DNA of 46,154 nt from Oscillospiraceae bacterium (GTDB taxonomy: Bacteria; Bacillota; Clostridia; Oscillospirales; CAG-272), in NCBI GenBank assembly GCA_015063525.1, contig SVTZ01000003.1, positions 1-46,154 on the forward strand, read 5' to 3'. The notes under the pieces are model-generated. The model saw nothing but the letters and a program-made list of their open reading frames with translations. It searched no databases and had not been told where the DNA came from. Shown in pieces: positions 35,704 to 42,199 of the stretch. Both the position numbers and the translations under genes were made by a program. Numbering within the stretch: position 1 is the stretch's first letter; the number at the start of each line of letters is the position of its first letter.

Positions 35704-37623
35704 TTACATTACTAATTCGTATAGGCCGAGCAGCTCTTCTTCGATCTCGCTCTTTCGCGTCTCAATCTCGGCAGCTCTTATATAATCGCTTGCTGCCTCG
35801 CCGAAAAGCTCCTCCTCAAGCGACTCAAGCTCTAATTCGAGCTCTGCGATTTTCTTTTCTGCTCTTTCTCGCGCCTTTTCTTCGCTCCTCGCCTTGGCTT
35901 TCTGACGTTTTTTCTCTTCGTAGTCTGCCTTTGCATCGGTAACTGACGCCTGCTTTTTCACGCTTGCAAGCATAAGATTTCTCGTTTCTCTTATGCGCAT
36001 ATACTCGGTGAAGGCGTCGTCGTAGCTTTCAAGAGGATAATCTATCATTCCGTTGTCTCTCTCGGGCGCAAGCTCGATAATTCTCGTCGCTATTCTGTTT
36101 ATAAAATATCTGTCGTGAGACACCGCCACTATCGTGCCGTCAAAGGCAAGCAGAGCGTTTTCAAGCGCCTCACAGGAGCCGATGTCAAGATGGTTCGTCG
36201 GCTCGTCCATTACCAGAAGATTTACCTTTTTAAGTATTAGCTTCGCCAGCGTCAGCCTTGCTCTCTCACCGCCCGAAAGTGTTGAAACCGACCGCTGTAT
36301 GTCGTCCGCATCAAATAGGAACAGTGCAAGGGTTGAGCGAAGCTCAAGATCGGTCTTGTCGGGATAAGCCTCGCGAAGCTCGCCAAACACCGTGTTCGTG
36401 TCGGTAAGACCTCGGTTTTCCTGGTCGTAATATCCGATCTTTACGTTATATCCAAGAGTAATTTTTCCTCCCGTAGGTACAAGAAGCGAGTTTATCAGCT
36501 TCATCAGCGTTGATTTTCCCGTTCCGTTTGCGCCGAGAAACATCACTCTCTCATATCTTCTTATTAGGAAGGAAAGATTTTTGATAAGCTTCCTTTCGCC
36601 GTAGGAAAAGCAAAGATCCTTTGCTTCCATAACGTTTCCTGCCGATTCCTCTTCAGTGGCAAAGCGCAGGCGTATGTTCTTCTCGTCCTTCGGCGCAAGC
36701 TCGACCTTTTCCATTCTCGCAAGCTGCTTTTCCTTTGCCCTTATGGTAACGTAGTTATGCTCCTGGTTGCATCTGCGCTGGAACTCGATATTCGCCTGAA
36801 TTCTGGCGATTTCCTTCTGCTGCTCTTTGTATCTTTTTTCAAGGGACGCAGCCTCGGCCTCGCTCTGCGCCTTGCACCTCGAGTAGCTGCCGTTATACAG
36901 CCTTGCCTTGCCGTATCGAAGCCAAAGGGTCTTGTTTGTCGTTCTGTCGAGGAAATAACGGTCGTGGGAAATTATGATAACAGTTTTTTTGTAATTTGCT
37001 AGGAAGGCTTCAAGCCACGCGAGGGCATCAATATCAAGATGGTTCGTTGGCTCGTCAAGCATAAGTATGTCCGGCTCGGTTGCCAGAAGTCTCGCAAGAG
37101 CGAGACGTGTGTATTGTCCTCCTGAAAGGGTTCTTATCTTCCTTGTTATAAGCTCCTCGTCAAAGCCGAGACGAAGCAGCATTCCTCGGCATCTGGATCT
37201 AAATTCAAGTCCTCCCTCCGACGCAAAGCGGTTGTTCTGCTCGTTGAGCCTTGCAGTCAGCGAAAGAATTTCGTCTCCCGAAGCATTAGCAAGAGCCGCT
37301 TCAGTCCGTTCGATCTCCCTTTCAAGAGAGAGAAGGGCGGGGTAGGCGGTGAACATATATTCAAGGCAGGTGACCTCTCCGGGAAGGGAGCTGAGATCGG
37401 CATTCTGCTCAAGAACGCCCACAGTGTGACCCTTTTGGATATATACCGCGCCCGAATCTGGAGAATACTGTCCGGTAATTATTTTAAAAAGCGATGTCTT
37501 GCCCGCGCCGTTGACGCCGATAACGCCAAGCCTGTCGCCGTCATTTATAGCAAAGGAAATATCCTTTAATATAACGTCTGTGCCAAAAGAGAGATTGATC
37601 TCCGAGGCTGATAAAGCTATCAT
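35704..37623 (-). CDS. ABC-F family ATP-binding protein
   Basis: Two ABC modules (GVNGAGKTSLFKI, LSGGQYTRLALARLL, GANGTGKSTLMKL, LSGGERARLTLAKLI), no TM; start MIALSASEINLSF. Confidence 0.95.
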   Translation of the reverse strand: MIALSASEINLSFGTDVILKDISFAINDGDRLGVIGVNGAGKTSLFKIITGQYSPDSGAVYIQKGHTVGVLEQNADLSSLPGEVTCLEYMFTAYPALLSLEREIERTEAALANASGDEILSLTARLNEQNNRFASEGGLEFRSRCRGMLLRLGFDEELITRKIRTLSGGQYTRLALARLLATEPDILMLDEPTNHLDIDALAWLEAFLANYKKTVIIISHDRYFLDRTTNKTLWLRYGKARLYNGSYSRCKAQSEAEAASLEKRYKEQQKEIARIQANIEFQRRCNQEHNYVTIRAKEKQLARMEKVELAPKDEKNIRLRFATEEESAGNVMEAKDLCFSYGERKLIKNLSFLIRRYERVMFLGANGTGKSTLMKLINSLLVPTGGKITLGYNVKIGYYDQENRGLTDTNTVFGELREAYPDKTDLELRSTLALFLFDADDIQRSVSTLSGGERARLTLAKLILKKVNLLVMDEPTNHLDIGSCEALENALLAFDGTIVAVSHDRYFINRIATRIIELAPERDNGMIDYPLESYDDAFTEYMRIRETRNLMLASVKKQASVTDAKADYEEKKRQKAKARSEEKARERAEKKIAELELELESLEEELFGEAASDYIRAAEIETRKSEIEEELLGLYELVM

Positions 37624-37880
37624 TATATTATAATAACCCGGTCGGGCTCCCTTCATAATTTTGTGACACTCACCACCCAAGATATAAACAATATATCAAA
37701 TCCTGAAAGGGCGCAAATCTTCACAATACTATTTTACCACAAGACAAAGAAAAAATCAATATGCGACCAAAATGAATAAATATGCAGAATAAAACCTGCG
37801 TATTCGCAGAAAAATATGGTAAAAAGGAAAAAATGTCGAATAAAAATACAAAAAATATTGAATTTTTTTGCAAAAGCCTA

Positions 37881-37909
37881 TTGACAAATGCATTTTATGG
37901 GTGTATAAT
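37881..37909 (+). promoter_or_regulatory. Perfect consensus sigmaA promoter for ABC transporter operon
   Basis: TTGACA-N17-TATAAT. Confidence 0.92.
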
Positions 37910-37962: not shown

Positions 37963-38841
37963 ATGAAAAAAATTATCTCACTTATTCTTGCACTTACAAT
38001 GCTCCTCGGCGCGACCTTCGCGCTCTCTTCCTGCAATCTTTTCGGCAGTGGGGACACCGGTAATGACGCTCTTGTGAAGGTCGTTGACGTTAAGCTTACT
38101 GACGAGCAGTATGCTTTTGTTGCAAAGAAGGATAACACCGCGCTTGTAAACGACTTCAACGCTTTCCTTGCAACTATTAAGGAAAACGGCACCTTCGACG
38201 CTCTCGTTGCGAAGTATTTTGAGGGCAAGGGAGAGAAGGTTGGCTATGACGTAACTACTACCGACGTTCAGAACAGTGATTCTAACCTTATCGTAGTAAC
38301 TAACTGCCCCTTCGAGCCTTTTGAGTACATAGGCGATGATGGCAAGATCTACGGTCTTGATATAGAAATCGCGGCAGCTTATGCTGAGTACAAGGATCTT
38401 GAACTCGTAATCAAGAACATTGGCTTTGACGATATCTTTACTCAGGTTGATGCAGGCTATGCGGATATTGGTATGGCAGGTATCACCGTAAGCGAGGATC
38501 GTGTAGCTCTTTACGACTTCACCACCACTTATTTCAATGCTTCTCAGAAGCTTATCGTTGCAGCAGACAATACCGATTTTGACAACTGCAAGACACTCGA
38601 GGACGTTGAGGCCGTTATCTCTGCCCTTGAAGGCAAAAAGATCGGCTATCAGACAGGTACGACCGGTGGTATGTATATCAACGGTGACGAGGACTGGGGA
38701 TACGTTGGCTTTGCAAACATTGAGGGCAAGGGCTATACAAGTGCTCAGGAAGCGGTTACCGATCTTGTCAACGGCAATATCTATGCTGTTGTTGTCGACG
38801 AGGCACCTGCTAATGCTATCGTTGCAGCGGTTAATAAATAA
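37963..38841 (+). CDS. Amino-acid ABC transporter substrate-binding lipoprotein, apparently circularly permuted
   Basis: Lipobox LSSC; SBP_bac_3 motifs NLIVVTNCPFEPFEYIGDDGKIYGLDIEIAAAYAEYK and DEAPANAIVAA; C-terminal-type motif KLTDEQYAFVAKKDNTALVNDFNAFLATIKENGTFDALVAKYF lies at the N-terminus. Confidence 0.9.
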   Translation: MKKIISLILALTMLLGATFALSSCNLFGSGDTGNDALVKVVDVKLTDEQYAFVAKKDNTALVNDFNAFLATIKENGTFDALVAKYFEGKGEKVGYDVTTTDVQNSDSNLIVVTNCPFEPFEYIGDDGKIYGLDIEIAAAYAEYKDLELVIKNIGFDDIFTQVDAGYADIGMAGITVSEDRVALYDFTTTYFNASQKLIVAADNTDFDNCKTLEDVEAVISALEGKKIGYQTGTTGGMYINGDEDWGYVGFANIEGKGYTSAQEAVTDLVNGNIYAVVVDEAPANAIVAAVNK

Positions 38842-38861
38842 TTAATCTACAAAACAAATTA

Positions 38862-38895
38862 AAAGCCCCGCAGCTTCTGTTGCGGGAGCTTTTTC
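38862..38895 (+). terminator. Terminator/attenuator between SBP and permease
   Basis: AAAAGCCCCGCAG...TTGCGGGAGCTTTTT. Confidence 0.8.
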
Positions 38896-38920: not shown

Positions 38921-39661
38921 ATGAACTGGAGTGTAAAATGGGAAAAATTCCTTTCCACAATGGAAAGCGAATACTTTAGACAGCTTCTTGTTGATGGTCT
39001 TGCCAATACTGTTAGCGTGGCGGTGCTCGGATTGCTGATAGGTATAGTTATAGGTAGCGTTATAGCCGTCGTTAAGGTGGCACCCAAATATAACTTGATA
39101 AACAGAATTCTCGATAAGATATGCAACGTATACGTTGCCATTTTTCGCGGAACTCCGATAGTGGTTCAGCTCTCGCTTGCGTACTACGTTCTTCTGCCCA
39201 GCCTTGGTGTAAAGGACGTTGACTCTCTGATCGTCGGTATAATTGTTTTCGGTATGAACAGCGGTGCTTACGTTTCGGAGATTATGCGCGGCGGTCTTAA
39301 CTCTGTTGACTCCGGACAGATGGAGGCGGGACGTGCGGTCGGCTTAAGTTATAGCACTACGATGATCAAAATAGTAATCCCGCAGGCGGTGAAAAATATC
39401 CTGCCCACACTCGGAAACGAGTTTATTACTCTTATCAAGGAAACCTCGGTGCTTAGCTTTATAACCGTTTATGACCTGTATACCGCGCTTATTGATACTA
39501 TAGGCGCTAAAAATTATGAAAAAATGGTGCCTTACCTGGTGCTTGCTATGATTTATATCGTTCTCGTTCTTCTTATCACTCTTCTTGTAAAGGTGTTAGA
39601 GAACATTTTTGCAAAGAGCGATAAAAAAAGAACGCAACCGAGAAAGGCAAAGGCGGTGTAA
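38921..39661 (+). CDS. Polar amino acid ABC transporter permease
   Basis: GLANTVSVAVLGLLIGIVIGSVIAVVK, YVAIFRGTPIVVQLSLAYY, EAGRAVGLSYSTTMIKIVIPQAVKNILPTLGNEFITLIKETS. Confidence 0.95.
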   Translation: MNWSVKWEKFLSTMESEYFRQLLVDGLANTVSVAVLGLLIGIVIGSVIAVVKVAPKYNLINRILDKICNVYVAIFRGTPIVVQLSLAYYVLLPSLGVKDVDSLIVGIIVFGMNSGAYVSEIMRGGLNSVDSGQMEAGRAVGLSYSTTMIKIVIPQAVKNILPTLGNEFITLIKETSVLSFITVYDLYTALIDTIGAKNYEKMVPYLVLAMIYIVLVLLITLLVKVLENIFAKSDKKRTQPRKAKAV

Positions 39662-39664
39662 ATA

Positions 39665-40486
39665 ATGGTAGAAAAGAATGTAATTATTAAGGTAGAGGGG
39701 CTTGAAAAGACCTTTGAGGATGGAAAAACCGTGTTAAACGGTATTGATCTTGTGGTCAATCAGGGTGAGAAGGTGGTTATCCTCGGTGCATCCGGATCGG
39801 GCAAATCAACCTTGCTAAGATGCCTTAATTGTATGGAGGATCCTACGGGCGGATCTATATTCTTTGATGGCGTTGACCTTGCCGATATGAGCGTTGATAT
39901 TAACGTTCGCCGTGAGCATATCGGTATGGTTTTCCAGCAGTTCAACCTCTTTAACAACAAGACCGTAATTGAAAATATTATGCTTGCGCCTGTGCACATC
40001 GCTTTCAGAAATATGCGCAAGGAGAAGATAAAGCGTTTCTTCGACAAGATCGATGAAAACGCCGAGCCTCTTAAGAGCAAAAAGGAAATAATTGCTGAGA
40101 AGAAGGCTCACGCTATGGAGCTTCTTCGTCGCATAGGTCTTGAGGAGAAGGCAAACGTTTATCCCTCAACTCTTTCAGGCGGACAGAAGCAGAGAATTGC
40201 TATTGTTCGTGCCCTTGCAATGAATCCTGACGTTATGCTCTTTGACGAGCCTACGTCGGCGCTCGACCCTGAGATGGTAGGCGAGGTACTCGACCTTATG
40301 AAGCAGCTTGCCGCCGAGGGAATGACTATGGTAATCGTAACTCACGAGATGGGATTTGCCCGCGAGGTGGCAGACAAGATCATCTTTATCGACGAGGGCA
40401 AAATCAAGGAGGAGGGAACTCCCGGTGAGGTCTTTGGCAACCCCAAAGATGCAAGACTTAAGGATTTTCTCTCGAAGGTACTTTAA
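39665..40486 (+). CDS. Polar amino acid ABC transporter ATP-binding protein
   Basis: [57 protein letters not shown]. Confidence 0.96.
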
Positions 40487-40493
40487 TAAAATT

Positions 40494-40524
40494 CTCCGCA
40501 CCCGAAAGAGTGCGGAGTTTTCTT
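40494..40524 (+). terminator. Terminator of ABC operon
   Basis: CTCCGCAC-ccgaaaga-GTGCGGAG followed by TTTTCTT. Confidence 0.85.
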
Positions 40525-42199
40525 ATATTCTTGCTTTAATCATAGAGTTGATTCGTTCTCTGACGCGAAGCATCTCGTCAGCCGAGTGGGCGCATCTATC
40601 AAAGGTTAGCTCACAGCCAAGCTCTTCCTCAATTGCCGCCACTACCTCTTCCTTTGAGTAAAGGCTCTCGCACAGGCGCATAGCGCTAATATCCTCTATA
40701 GCGTCGTGAAATACCATTGTGCGCAGCGACTCAAGCGCTGAGCCGTCACGTGCGGGGTAGACCGAGAAAGCGTCACCTGCCGAAACCCAGGCATCACCGC
40801 CCTGCTCAACGTAAGGATTGATGCAGTCTACCGAGTGCTCATTTTTGTAGAAATTGAAGCCCCAGTGTAGGAAACCGACGATGTCGTACTTATACATCTG
40901 CATACCTATGGAGCGATTTCTCCAAGACGGCATAGCGATAAAGCGGTTTGAAACCTTAACTCTCTGCCCACCGCAGTAGTAGGCCCAAAGTCCCTTGACA
41001 CCTCCGTCGATAAAGCTCTGGATGTGATCGCTTGCAGGGATAGGCGTCTTAACCACACCCTTTTTATAAAACTCGTAGCTCGAAAGCGCGTCCATAATAA
41101 CGTAATTTTTGAGCAGTCCCTCAACTATTTTCTTTGACCTTTTGTAGTCCTCGAGTTGCTCCTTGCTCGGCTCGTCGGACACGTGGAAGTAGCAACGGTG
41201 GTCGTCTCCACGCTTTTTCATATAATTAAGGAAGGATTTGATAAAGGAGTGGAGGAATTTCTTGTACTCCTCGCCGTGCGCGTCGGTATCCCAGCCGAAA
41301 ATTCGCTTGTACTCGCCGTCAACTGTTGCCATAATCTTCGGCGCGTGCGTAGCACCCCACTGCGTGAAGAAGTGTGAAATTTCAAAATACTTGATTCCCA
41401 CTCTGTCGCACATAGCTATCCATCTGTCAAGCAATTTATAATCAAAGGTATAGCGTCTGCCCGTCTTCTTAACCCCGACGAGCTGCGTCGTGAGTCTCTC
41501 TCCGCCGATTTTCGTATCAAGGGGTGGCGTGAAAACGGGGGTTAATAGCATATTTATGCCCGTCTTTTTTGCGGTGCGAGCGAAATTCTCAATAATCTCC
41601 CAGTGCCTATCTGACCACACGGGAACGTTATAGTATTCAGCTAGGCAGTCGCAGTATAGCCACTGTGTGAAAATAAGCCTCTGCTCGGGTAGGCTCGCGT
41701 CGATTACCTCAATGTTTACCGAGTCGCTGGCAAGAGCCTTTCCGCTTTCCTCTTCGTAAAGGGTTATGTCGAGGCTGTTTGTTCCGCACTTTGCATCAGC
41801 GGGCACCGAAATCTCTAGCCACACGCTGGTCGGAACGTTTTCCGTAGCAGGATTTCCAATAACTATTTTACCGCCGTAACGTAGTGGCTCGAGCAGGTCG
41901 GGATAGAGCCCCGGCGTGGTACGCAGATACTGCTCGTCATGGAAGAATTTTTCGGCAGGATAGGATACGGGAATGTCGCTGACCTTGTATAGCGTCACGT
42001 ATTCCGAAAGTGTGCCCGAGATTTTAGGCGTAAGTCTGCGTCTTTTTGGCTCGTCATACTTGTTTTCATATGCCACGAGCAGCTGCATACGTATGAGCTC
42101 GCCCTTAAGTGCCGATATGTAGGAGAGCCTGTCAAAGTCCTCTATTCTCTGGTCAGAGAACACCTTTTCTAAAGAAGAAATTATTTTGGTTTTTAACAT
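40523..42199 (-). CDS. DUF4091 / GH123-like protein
   Basis: CYFHVSDEP Asp-Glu pair, GLWAYYCGGQ, GFLHWGFNFY, PARDGSALESLRTMVFHDAIEDISAMRL; no signal peptide. Confidence 0.88.
   Translation of the reverse strand: MLKTKIISSLEKVFSDQRIEDFDRLSYISALKGELIRMQLLVAYENKYDEPKRRRLTPKISGTLSEYVTLYKVSDIPVSYPAEKFFHDEQYLRTTPGLYPDLLEPLRYGGKIVIGNPATENVPTSVWLEISVPADAKCGTNSLDITLYEEESGKALASDSVNIEVIDASLPEQRLIFTQWLYCDCLAEYYNVPVWSDRHWEIIENFARTAKKTGINMLLTPVFTPPLDTKIGGERLTTQLVGVKKTGRRYTFDYKLLDRWIAMCDRVGIKYFEISHFFTQWGATHAPKIMATVDGEYKRIFGWDTDAHGEEYKKFLHSFIKSFLNYMKKRGDDHRCYFHVSDEPSKEQLEDYKRSKKIVEGLLKNYVIMDALSSYEFYKKGVVKTPIPASDHIQSFIDGGVKGLWAYYCGGQRVKVSNRFIAMPSWRNRSIGMQMYKYDIVGFLHWGFNFYKNEHSVDCINPYVEQGGDAWVSAGDAFSVYPARDGSALESLRTMVFHDAIEDISAMRLCESLYSKEEVVAAIEEELGCELTFDRCAHSADEMLRVRERINSMIKARI

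Follow-up and report, generated by a model that had tools for sequence, protein, structure and literature searches.

A natural circular permutant of a type II amino-acid-binding lipoprotein and further segment rotations of the SBP_bac_3 family in Bacillota

Natural circular permutation is usually regarded as a rare, ancient curiosity, and to our knowledge one class of naturally permuted ABC binding protein has been known, that of the type I sugar-binding TpMglB-2. TpMglB-2 (Tp0684) of Treponema pallidum and its relatives, reported from Gram-positive gut bacteria, constitute the 'Type Ic / Cluster Bc' of naturally circularly permuted, lipid-tethered ABC substrate-binding proteins (SBPs), in which ligand binding and closure are normal (PMC4990184). 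The permutation in this type I sugar-binding family concerns the N-lobe and comes with an added crossover and a weakly conserved permuted part; Brautigam and colleagues suggested that it may suit tethering (PMC4990184). Circularly permuted FRET sensors were engineered from LAO-BP by joining the native termini with a linker; the permutants, cut at the inter-lobe linker, still bound lysine and arginine, the affinity for lysine being approximately 36-fold weaker (PMC5087393). In GlnPQ, two complete domains, SBD1 and SBD2, each canonical, are fused to the permease (6h30; PMC8025302). In the open-licence literature we found no report of a natural SBP_bac_3 permutation, of several natural breakpoints or of a reversal.

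The window analyzed here is a stretch of 46,154 nt of contig SVTZ01000003.1, from a fragmented MAG of a gut Oscillospiraceae bacterium (111 contigs, 76.5% complete). Its ORF 37963-38841 (+) is translated into 292 aa with no internal stops. In the canonical order A-B-C, segment A denotes the N-terminal lobe 1 with the first hinge strand, segment B most of lobe 2, and segment C the last lobe-2 strand together with the second hinge strand and C-terminal helices. Instead, the window protein is arranged as signal peptide, C, linker, A and B. The signal peptide and lipobox (residues 1-24, LSS-C24; 37963-38034; AlphaFold2 helix 2-25) are followed by segment C (residues 38-88; 38074-38226), by a linker that joins the canonical C- and N-termini in lobe 1 (residues 89-107; 38227-38283; delimited by alignment of orthologs), by segment A (residues 108-221; 38284-38625; best Pfam SBP_bac_3 stretch 109-222, in agreement with PDB alignments) and by segment B (residues 222-292; 38626-38838), after which the protein ends at the expected start of segment C. 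An earlier note on this DNA had recognized the moved C-terminal segment, the linker leading into a canonical N-terminal start and the stop where segment C would begin, and these points stand. Its placing of the segment directly after the lipobox does not, since a 13-residue spacer (25-37) follows C24, and the limits that it gave, nt 38095-38220, are better replaced by nt 38074-38226, because the strand VKVVDV belongs to segment C as well.

The segment order follows from two separate matches to AncQR (4zv1) in a phmmer search of the PDB: residues 109-287 align to positions 12-175, and residues 35-86 to the C-terminal end, 180-231. T. maritima ArgBP and GlnP SBD2 are matched in the same split manner. 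The best single PDB chain is 6h30, the tandem GlnPQ SBD1-SBD2, in which the match runs from segment C of domain 1 through the linker to segments A and B of domain 2, so that the linker of the window protein is the positional equivalent of that between SBD1 and SBD2. Only tandem chains (6h30 and BvgS, 4q0c) span the C-linker-A junction in the PDB, and a sequence search found no permuted SBP already deposited there. The window protein itself, with one A, one B and one C in 292 aa, is no tandem of two complete domains of the GlnPQ type. It scores 100.5 bits against SBP_bac_3 (PF00497; curated cut-off 26.4) in two stretches and, despite this membership, lacks the canonical linear order.

A permutation-aware test was based on a profile built from 28 unpermuted relatives, which was searched with native and with doubled mature sequences. 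The native window protein scored 155 bits and covered model positions 6-177 of 232, i.e., A-B only; the doubled sequence, an alignment proposed in the earlier note, scored 188 bits and covered positions 7-230 with no break across the junction. Doubling changed the score of canonical controls by -4 to 0 bits (n=49), as against gains of 10 to 108 bits for C-A-B proteins (n=159), 66 to 150 bits for proteins with the order B-C-A (n=30) and 63 to 69 bits for those with segment B itself divided, B2-C-A-B1 (n=3). Full-length coverage by a C-A-B query alone does not prove the order, as one protein (L255) looked full-length yet was canonical; unless otherwise indicated, the orders given below were assigned by the doubled test.

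The AlphaFold2 model, built with 71 colinear sequences, is of high confidence (pLDDT 93.4, pTM 0.82), and residues 38-86 are modeled as strands and two helices (pLDDT about 96-98), like canonical C-termini. The Foldseek alignment to relatives about 226 residues long covers 183 columns (A-B), with a TM-score by target length of about 0.67 (0.67 to 4zv1); since this program cannot follow permutations, coverage of A-B only is expected for a permutant. The new termini would lie in lobe 2, which would shift the lipid anchor there from lobe 1.

Compared with type II/cluster F SBPs (GlnH, ArtJ, HisJ, T. maritima ArgBP and AncQR), the window protein is homologous in all segments and shares predicted fold elements, ligand residues and operon partners; unlike them, it has the order C-A-B, linked old termini, and termini and a lipid anchor predicted in lobe 2. 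It differs from TpMglB-2 in being a type II amino-acid SBP that is broken in lobe 2, with clearly recognizable sequence homology and several breakpoints in its family, and its best matches by both phmmer and Foldseek are SBP_bac_3 type II structures rather than the type I sugar-binding fold. The LAO-BP sensors belong to the same fold family and are man-made, whereas the natural break of the window protein lies inside lobe 2. The C1-linker-A2-B2 stretch of GlnPQ follows the segment order of the window protein. The SBP_bac_3 permutants are tethered too and, by analogy, would fit the tethering idea put forward for TpMglB-2, which they do not put to a test.

The gene is preceded by a sigma-70-type promoter (TTGACA-N17-TATAAT, 12/12 matches in a pattern scan; 37881-37909, +), which is near-identical upstream of a canonical-order ortholog (L013/L119, hereafter L119). 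A hairpin with a T-run (38861-38893, +; -21.8 kcal/mol, z -4.97; also terminator scan) separates it from the permease gene and is likely a partial terminator that sets an excess of SBP over the membrane parts. The downstream genes encode a single-subunit amino-acid ABC permease of the GlnP/EhuD type (38921-39661, +; PF00528, E 4e-27; NCBIfam HEQRo_perm_3TM above cut-off) and a GlnQ-type ABC ATPase (39665-40486, +; PF00005; GlnQ model, E 5e-86). Thus the intact ORF, signal peptide, perfect promoter and adjoining permease and ATPase described in the earlier note are all present. The ATPase carries an unusual charged insertion before the signature motif, and the L119 ATPase has one in the same place. 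A divergent ABC-F-type ATPase gene lies upstream (35704-37680, -; ORF lists) and serves as a synteny marker common to the L119 locus, and a convergent gene at 40523-42199 (-) codes for a GH123 catalytic domain (E 3e-109). The second amino-acid SBP of the source genome (contig C80, L001:1402-2196) has the canonical order, and both architectures therefore coexist in one cell.

A permease and an ATPase were present in 73/73 C-A-B loci and 20/20 B-C-A loci with room downstream. Pairwise comparisons give dN/dS of 0.05-0.10, dS being close to saturation. Among 71 orthologs C24 is invariant, as are T175, R180 and D279, which we take to align with the alpha-carboxylate and alpha-amino ligand positions of the SBP_bac_3 family. 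An alpha-amino acid is the most probable ligand. What is shown for the window protein is the order of its segments and the conservation of that order, together with synteny, purifying selection and a confidently predicted fold. The permutation-aware profile search, the matches to solved structures, a model of high confidence, purifying selection and dozens of colinear orthologs agree: the gene very probably encodes a natural, functional C-A-B circular permutant, an amino-acid-binding lipoprotein of type II (cluster F, SBP_bac_3) that serves the adjacent permease and ATPase, in keeping with the impression of functionality that the sequence had first given.

The C-A-B architecture is lineage-wide. 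In the genus sample, approximately 22 of 69 genomes carry it, nine have B-C-A and one has the close canonical-order ortholog; in the family sample, 70/297 genomes contain a near-full-length match, the doubled test having been applied to part of these. The doubled test confirmed C-A-B in no fewer than 34 of the 387 other genomes of the class sample. The order was found in the isolates Acetivibrio mesophilus N2K1 and Thermoclostridium caenicola DSM 19027, in MAGs of Lachnospiraceae, Oscillospiraceae and Christensenella, and in three single-contig genomes (G929, G958, and G1083). When 36 genomes were drawn evenly from the class, independently of similarity to the window protein, six of about 64 single-SBP matches, spread over four of the genomes, were permuted. 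No plasmid record covered 80% of the C-A-B query. The earlier note had supposed a lineage-wide architecture hidden by domain-level annotation, and this proved right: in Pfam, the protein is annotated with a single SBP_bac_3 domain split over two stretches.

Beyond what that note had proposed, we found two other rotations, a probable return to the canonical order and termini placed by prediction in lobe 2. The third rotation, B2-C-A-B1, occurs in another Bacillota family (L197:1477-2280, L201:654-1547, L209:1555-2370). Breakpoints fall near model columns 176-188 in C-A-B, 106-120 in B-C-A and 138 in B2-C-A-B1 (cut inside segment B), all three inside lobe 2 according to the domain boundaries that we take as known for SBP_bac_3, and lobe 1 is contiguous in every rotation via the C-linker-A junction. 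At one locus (L162:1988-3761), a C-A-B gene is directly followed by a B-C-A gene and then by one permease and ATPase. Some permuted SBPs are fused in frame to a permease, either as C-A-B (L009:1498-3123, L137:1468-3051) or as B-C-A (L189:1132-2712), and L139, L141, and L142 are further such fusions; fusion of the permease to a permuted SBP puts the fusion point on lobe 2. A C-A-B-looking SBP (L308:102-1106, contig G768:C12) is seemingly anchored by a transmembrane helix in place of a lipobox; its long N-terminus left the doubled test uninformative, and its order is assigned by appearance.

Two readings would deny the permutation altogether. One holds that the order is an artefact of assembly or frameshift, or that the gene is a decayed copy. 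The fragmentation of the source MAG speaks for it, whereas the same order recurs in isolates, single-contig genomes and many independent MAGs, and the intact ORF, low dN/dS, pLDDT of 93 and synteny are those of a maintained gene; on the evidence of isolates, complete genomes, synteny and dN/dS, this reading was discarded as having practically no chance of being correct. According to the other, also very improbable, the N-terminal segment is an unrelated extension and the protein a truncated SBP without C-terminal helices, as the sequential Foldseek alignment, which leaves the segment uncovered, might suggest. Segment C alone, however, reaches 44.6 bits with a canonical C-only profile, whereas 5000 shuffles of residues 26-104 gave 11.8 bits at most. 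It also matches the C-terminal ends of AncQR, ArgBP and GlnP SBD2 with an agreeing strand-strand-helix-helix pattern, and its homolog sits at the C-terminus of L119. The earlier note had raised the case of an unrelated segment with a second copy at the true C-terminus; with the C-only profile no such copy was detected there, the next best stretch scoring -2.5 bits, and an unrelated extension was rejected on the strength of this profile.

For the natural permutant, the question is then how the three rotations are related. On the SBP tree, for which sequences were rotated to A-B-C before comparison, segment order changes at least 12 times. A single origin of all C-A-B proteins was rejected (AU p 7e-5), the divergent C-A-B proteins L040, L173, L238, and L243 being placed elsewhere in the tree. 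The rotations could have arisen independently from canonical ancestors, with no serial rotation and with L119 as a surviving canonical ancestor; consistent with this, the AU test does not reject B-C-A outside C-A-B (p 0.25), rejects L119 outside C-A-B and B-C-A only marginally (p 0.0435), and L119 is a lone sequence from a single MAG. Evidence to the contrary comes from the trees: within the window's superclade on the SBP tree, L119 nests in the window's clade (bootstrap 100, SH-aLRT 98) and B-C-A is sister to the C-A-B protein of L103 (100 and 99); in the permease and ATPase tree, which is independent of SBP order, L119 falls within C-A-B operons (SH-aLRT 97) and B-C-A operons lie inside C-A-B operons (support 96 and 89). 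A C-A-B clade excluding both B-C-A and L119 was rejected as well (AU p 0.0002). Furthermore, the tail of L119, GTGTLVGYPVSDD, resembles the C-A-B linker, EGKGEKVGYDVTT, whereas canonical tails mostly have 0-10 residues. We consider the independent origin unlikely. The L119 locus shares the divergent ABC-F gene, promoter, permease and ATPase with the window, and this synteny, the nesting in the C-A-B clade and the linker-like tail make reversal to the canonical order the best reading of L119, a probable one for a single sequence from a single MAG. Serial rotation in place within a conserved operon seems moderately likely: A-B-C would have given rise to a C-A-B ancestor, and this to B-C-A in one branch and to A-B-C in another, with the anchor or fusion point moving to lobe 2, and back to lobe 1 in the reversal, while binding and transport were kept.

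Permutants of this kind may have originated from tandem copies that were fused, as in GlnPQ SBD1-SBD2 proteins, and whose outer parts were then trimmed while the C-linker-A junction was retained. The same fusion and trimming would have occurred several times in Bacillota with differing breakpoints that always fall in lobe 2. Both tandem SBDs and neighboring duplicates of SBP genes do exist (L207, L162, L170); in the C-A-B lineage we saw tandem genes only (L162, L170) and no tandem protein (C-A-B-C-A-B). The window protein presumably captures an alpha-amino acid between its two lobes, as GlnH and ArtJ do, and docks on its permease, with the lipid anchor on lobe 2 in place of lobe 1 and the old termini linked in lobe 1. 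The main physical consequence of permutation would thus be the attachment of a lipid anchor, or of a fused permease, to lobe 2.

Natural rotations are numerous in one abundant transporter component, the family showing at least three across Clostridia, one of which seems to be a return to the canonical order. Close relatives differ in segment order, their operons are intact, and the arrangement of segments in so common a transporter protein is much less rigid than had been supposed. Domain-level annotation conceals such rearrangements. With natural counterparts like the window protein and L119, the mechanism, the tolerance to permutation and the effects on anchoring and docking become directly testable, and the permuted proteins supply natural scaffolds for amino-acid biosensors.
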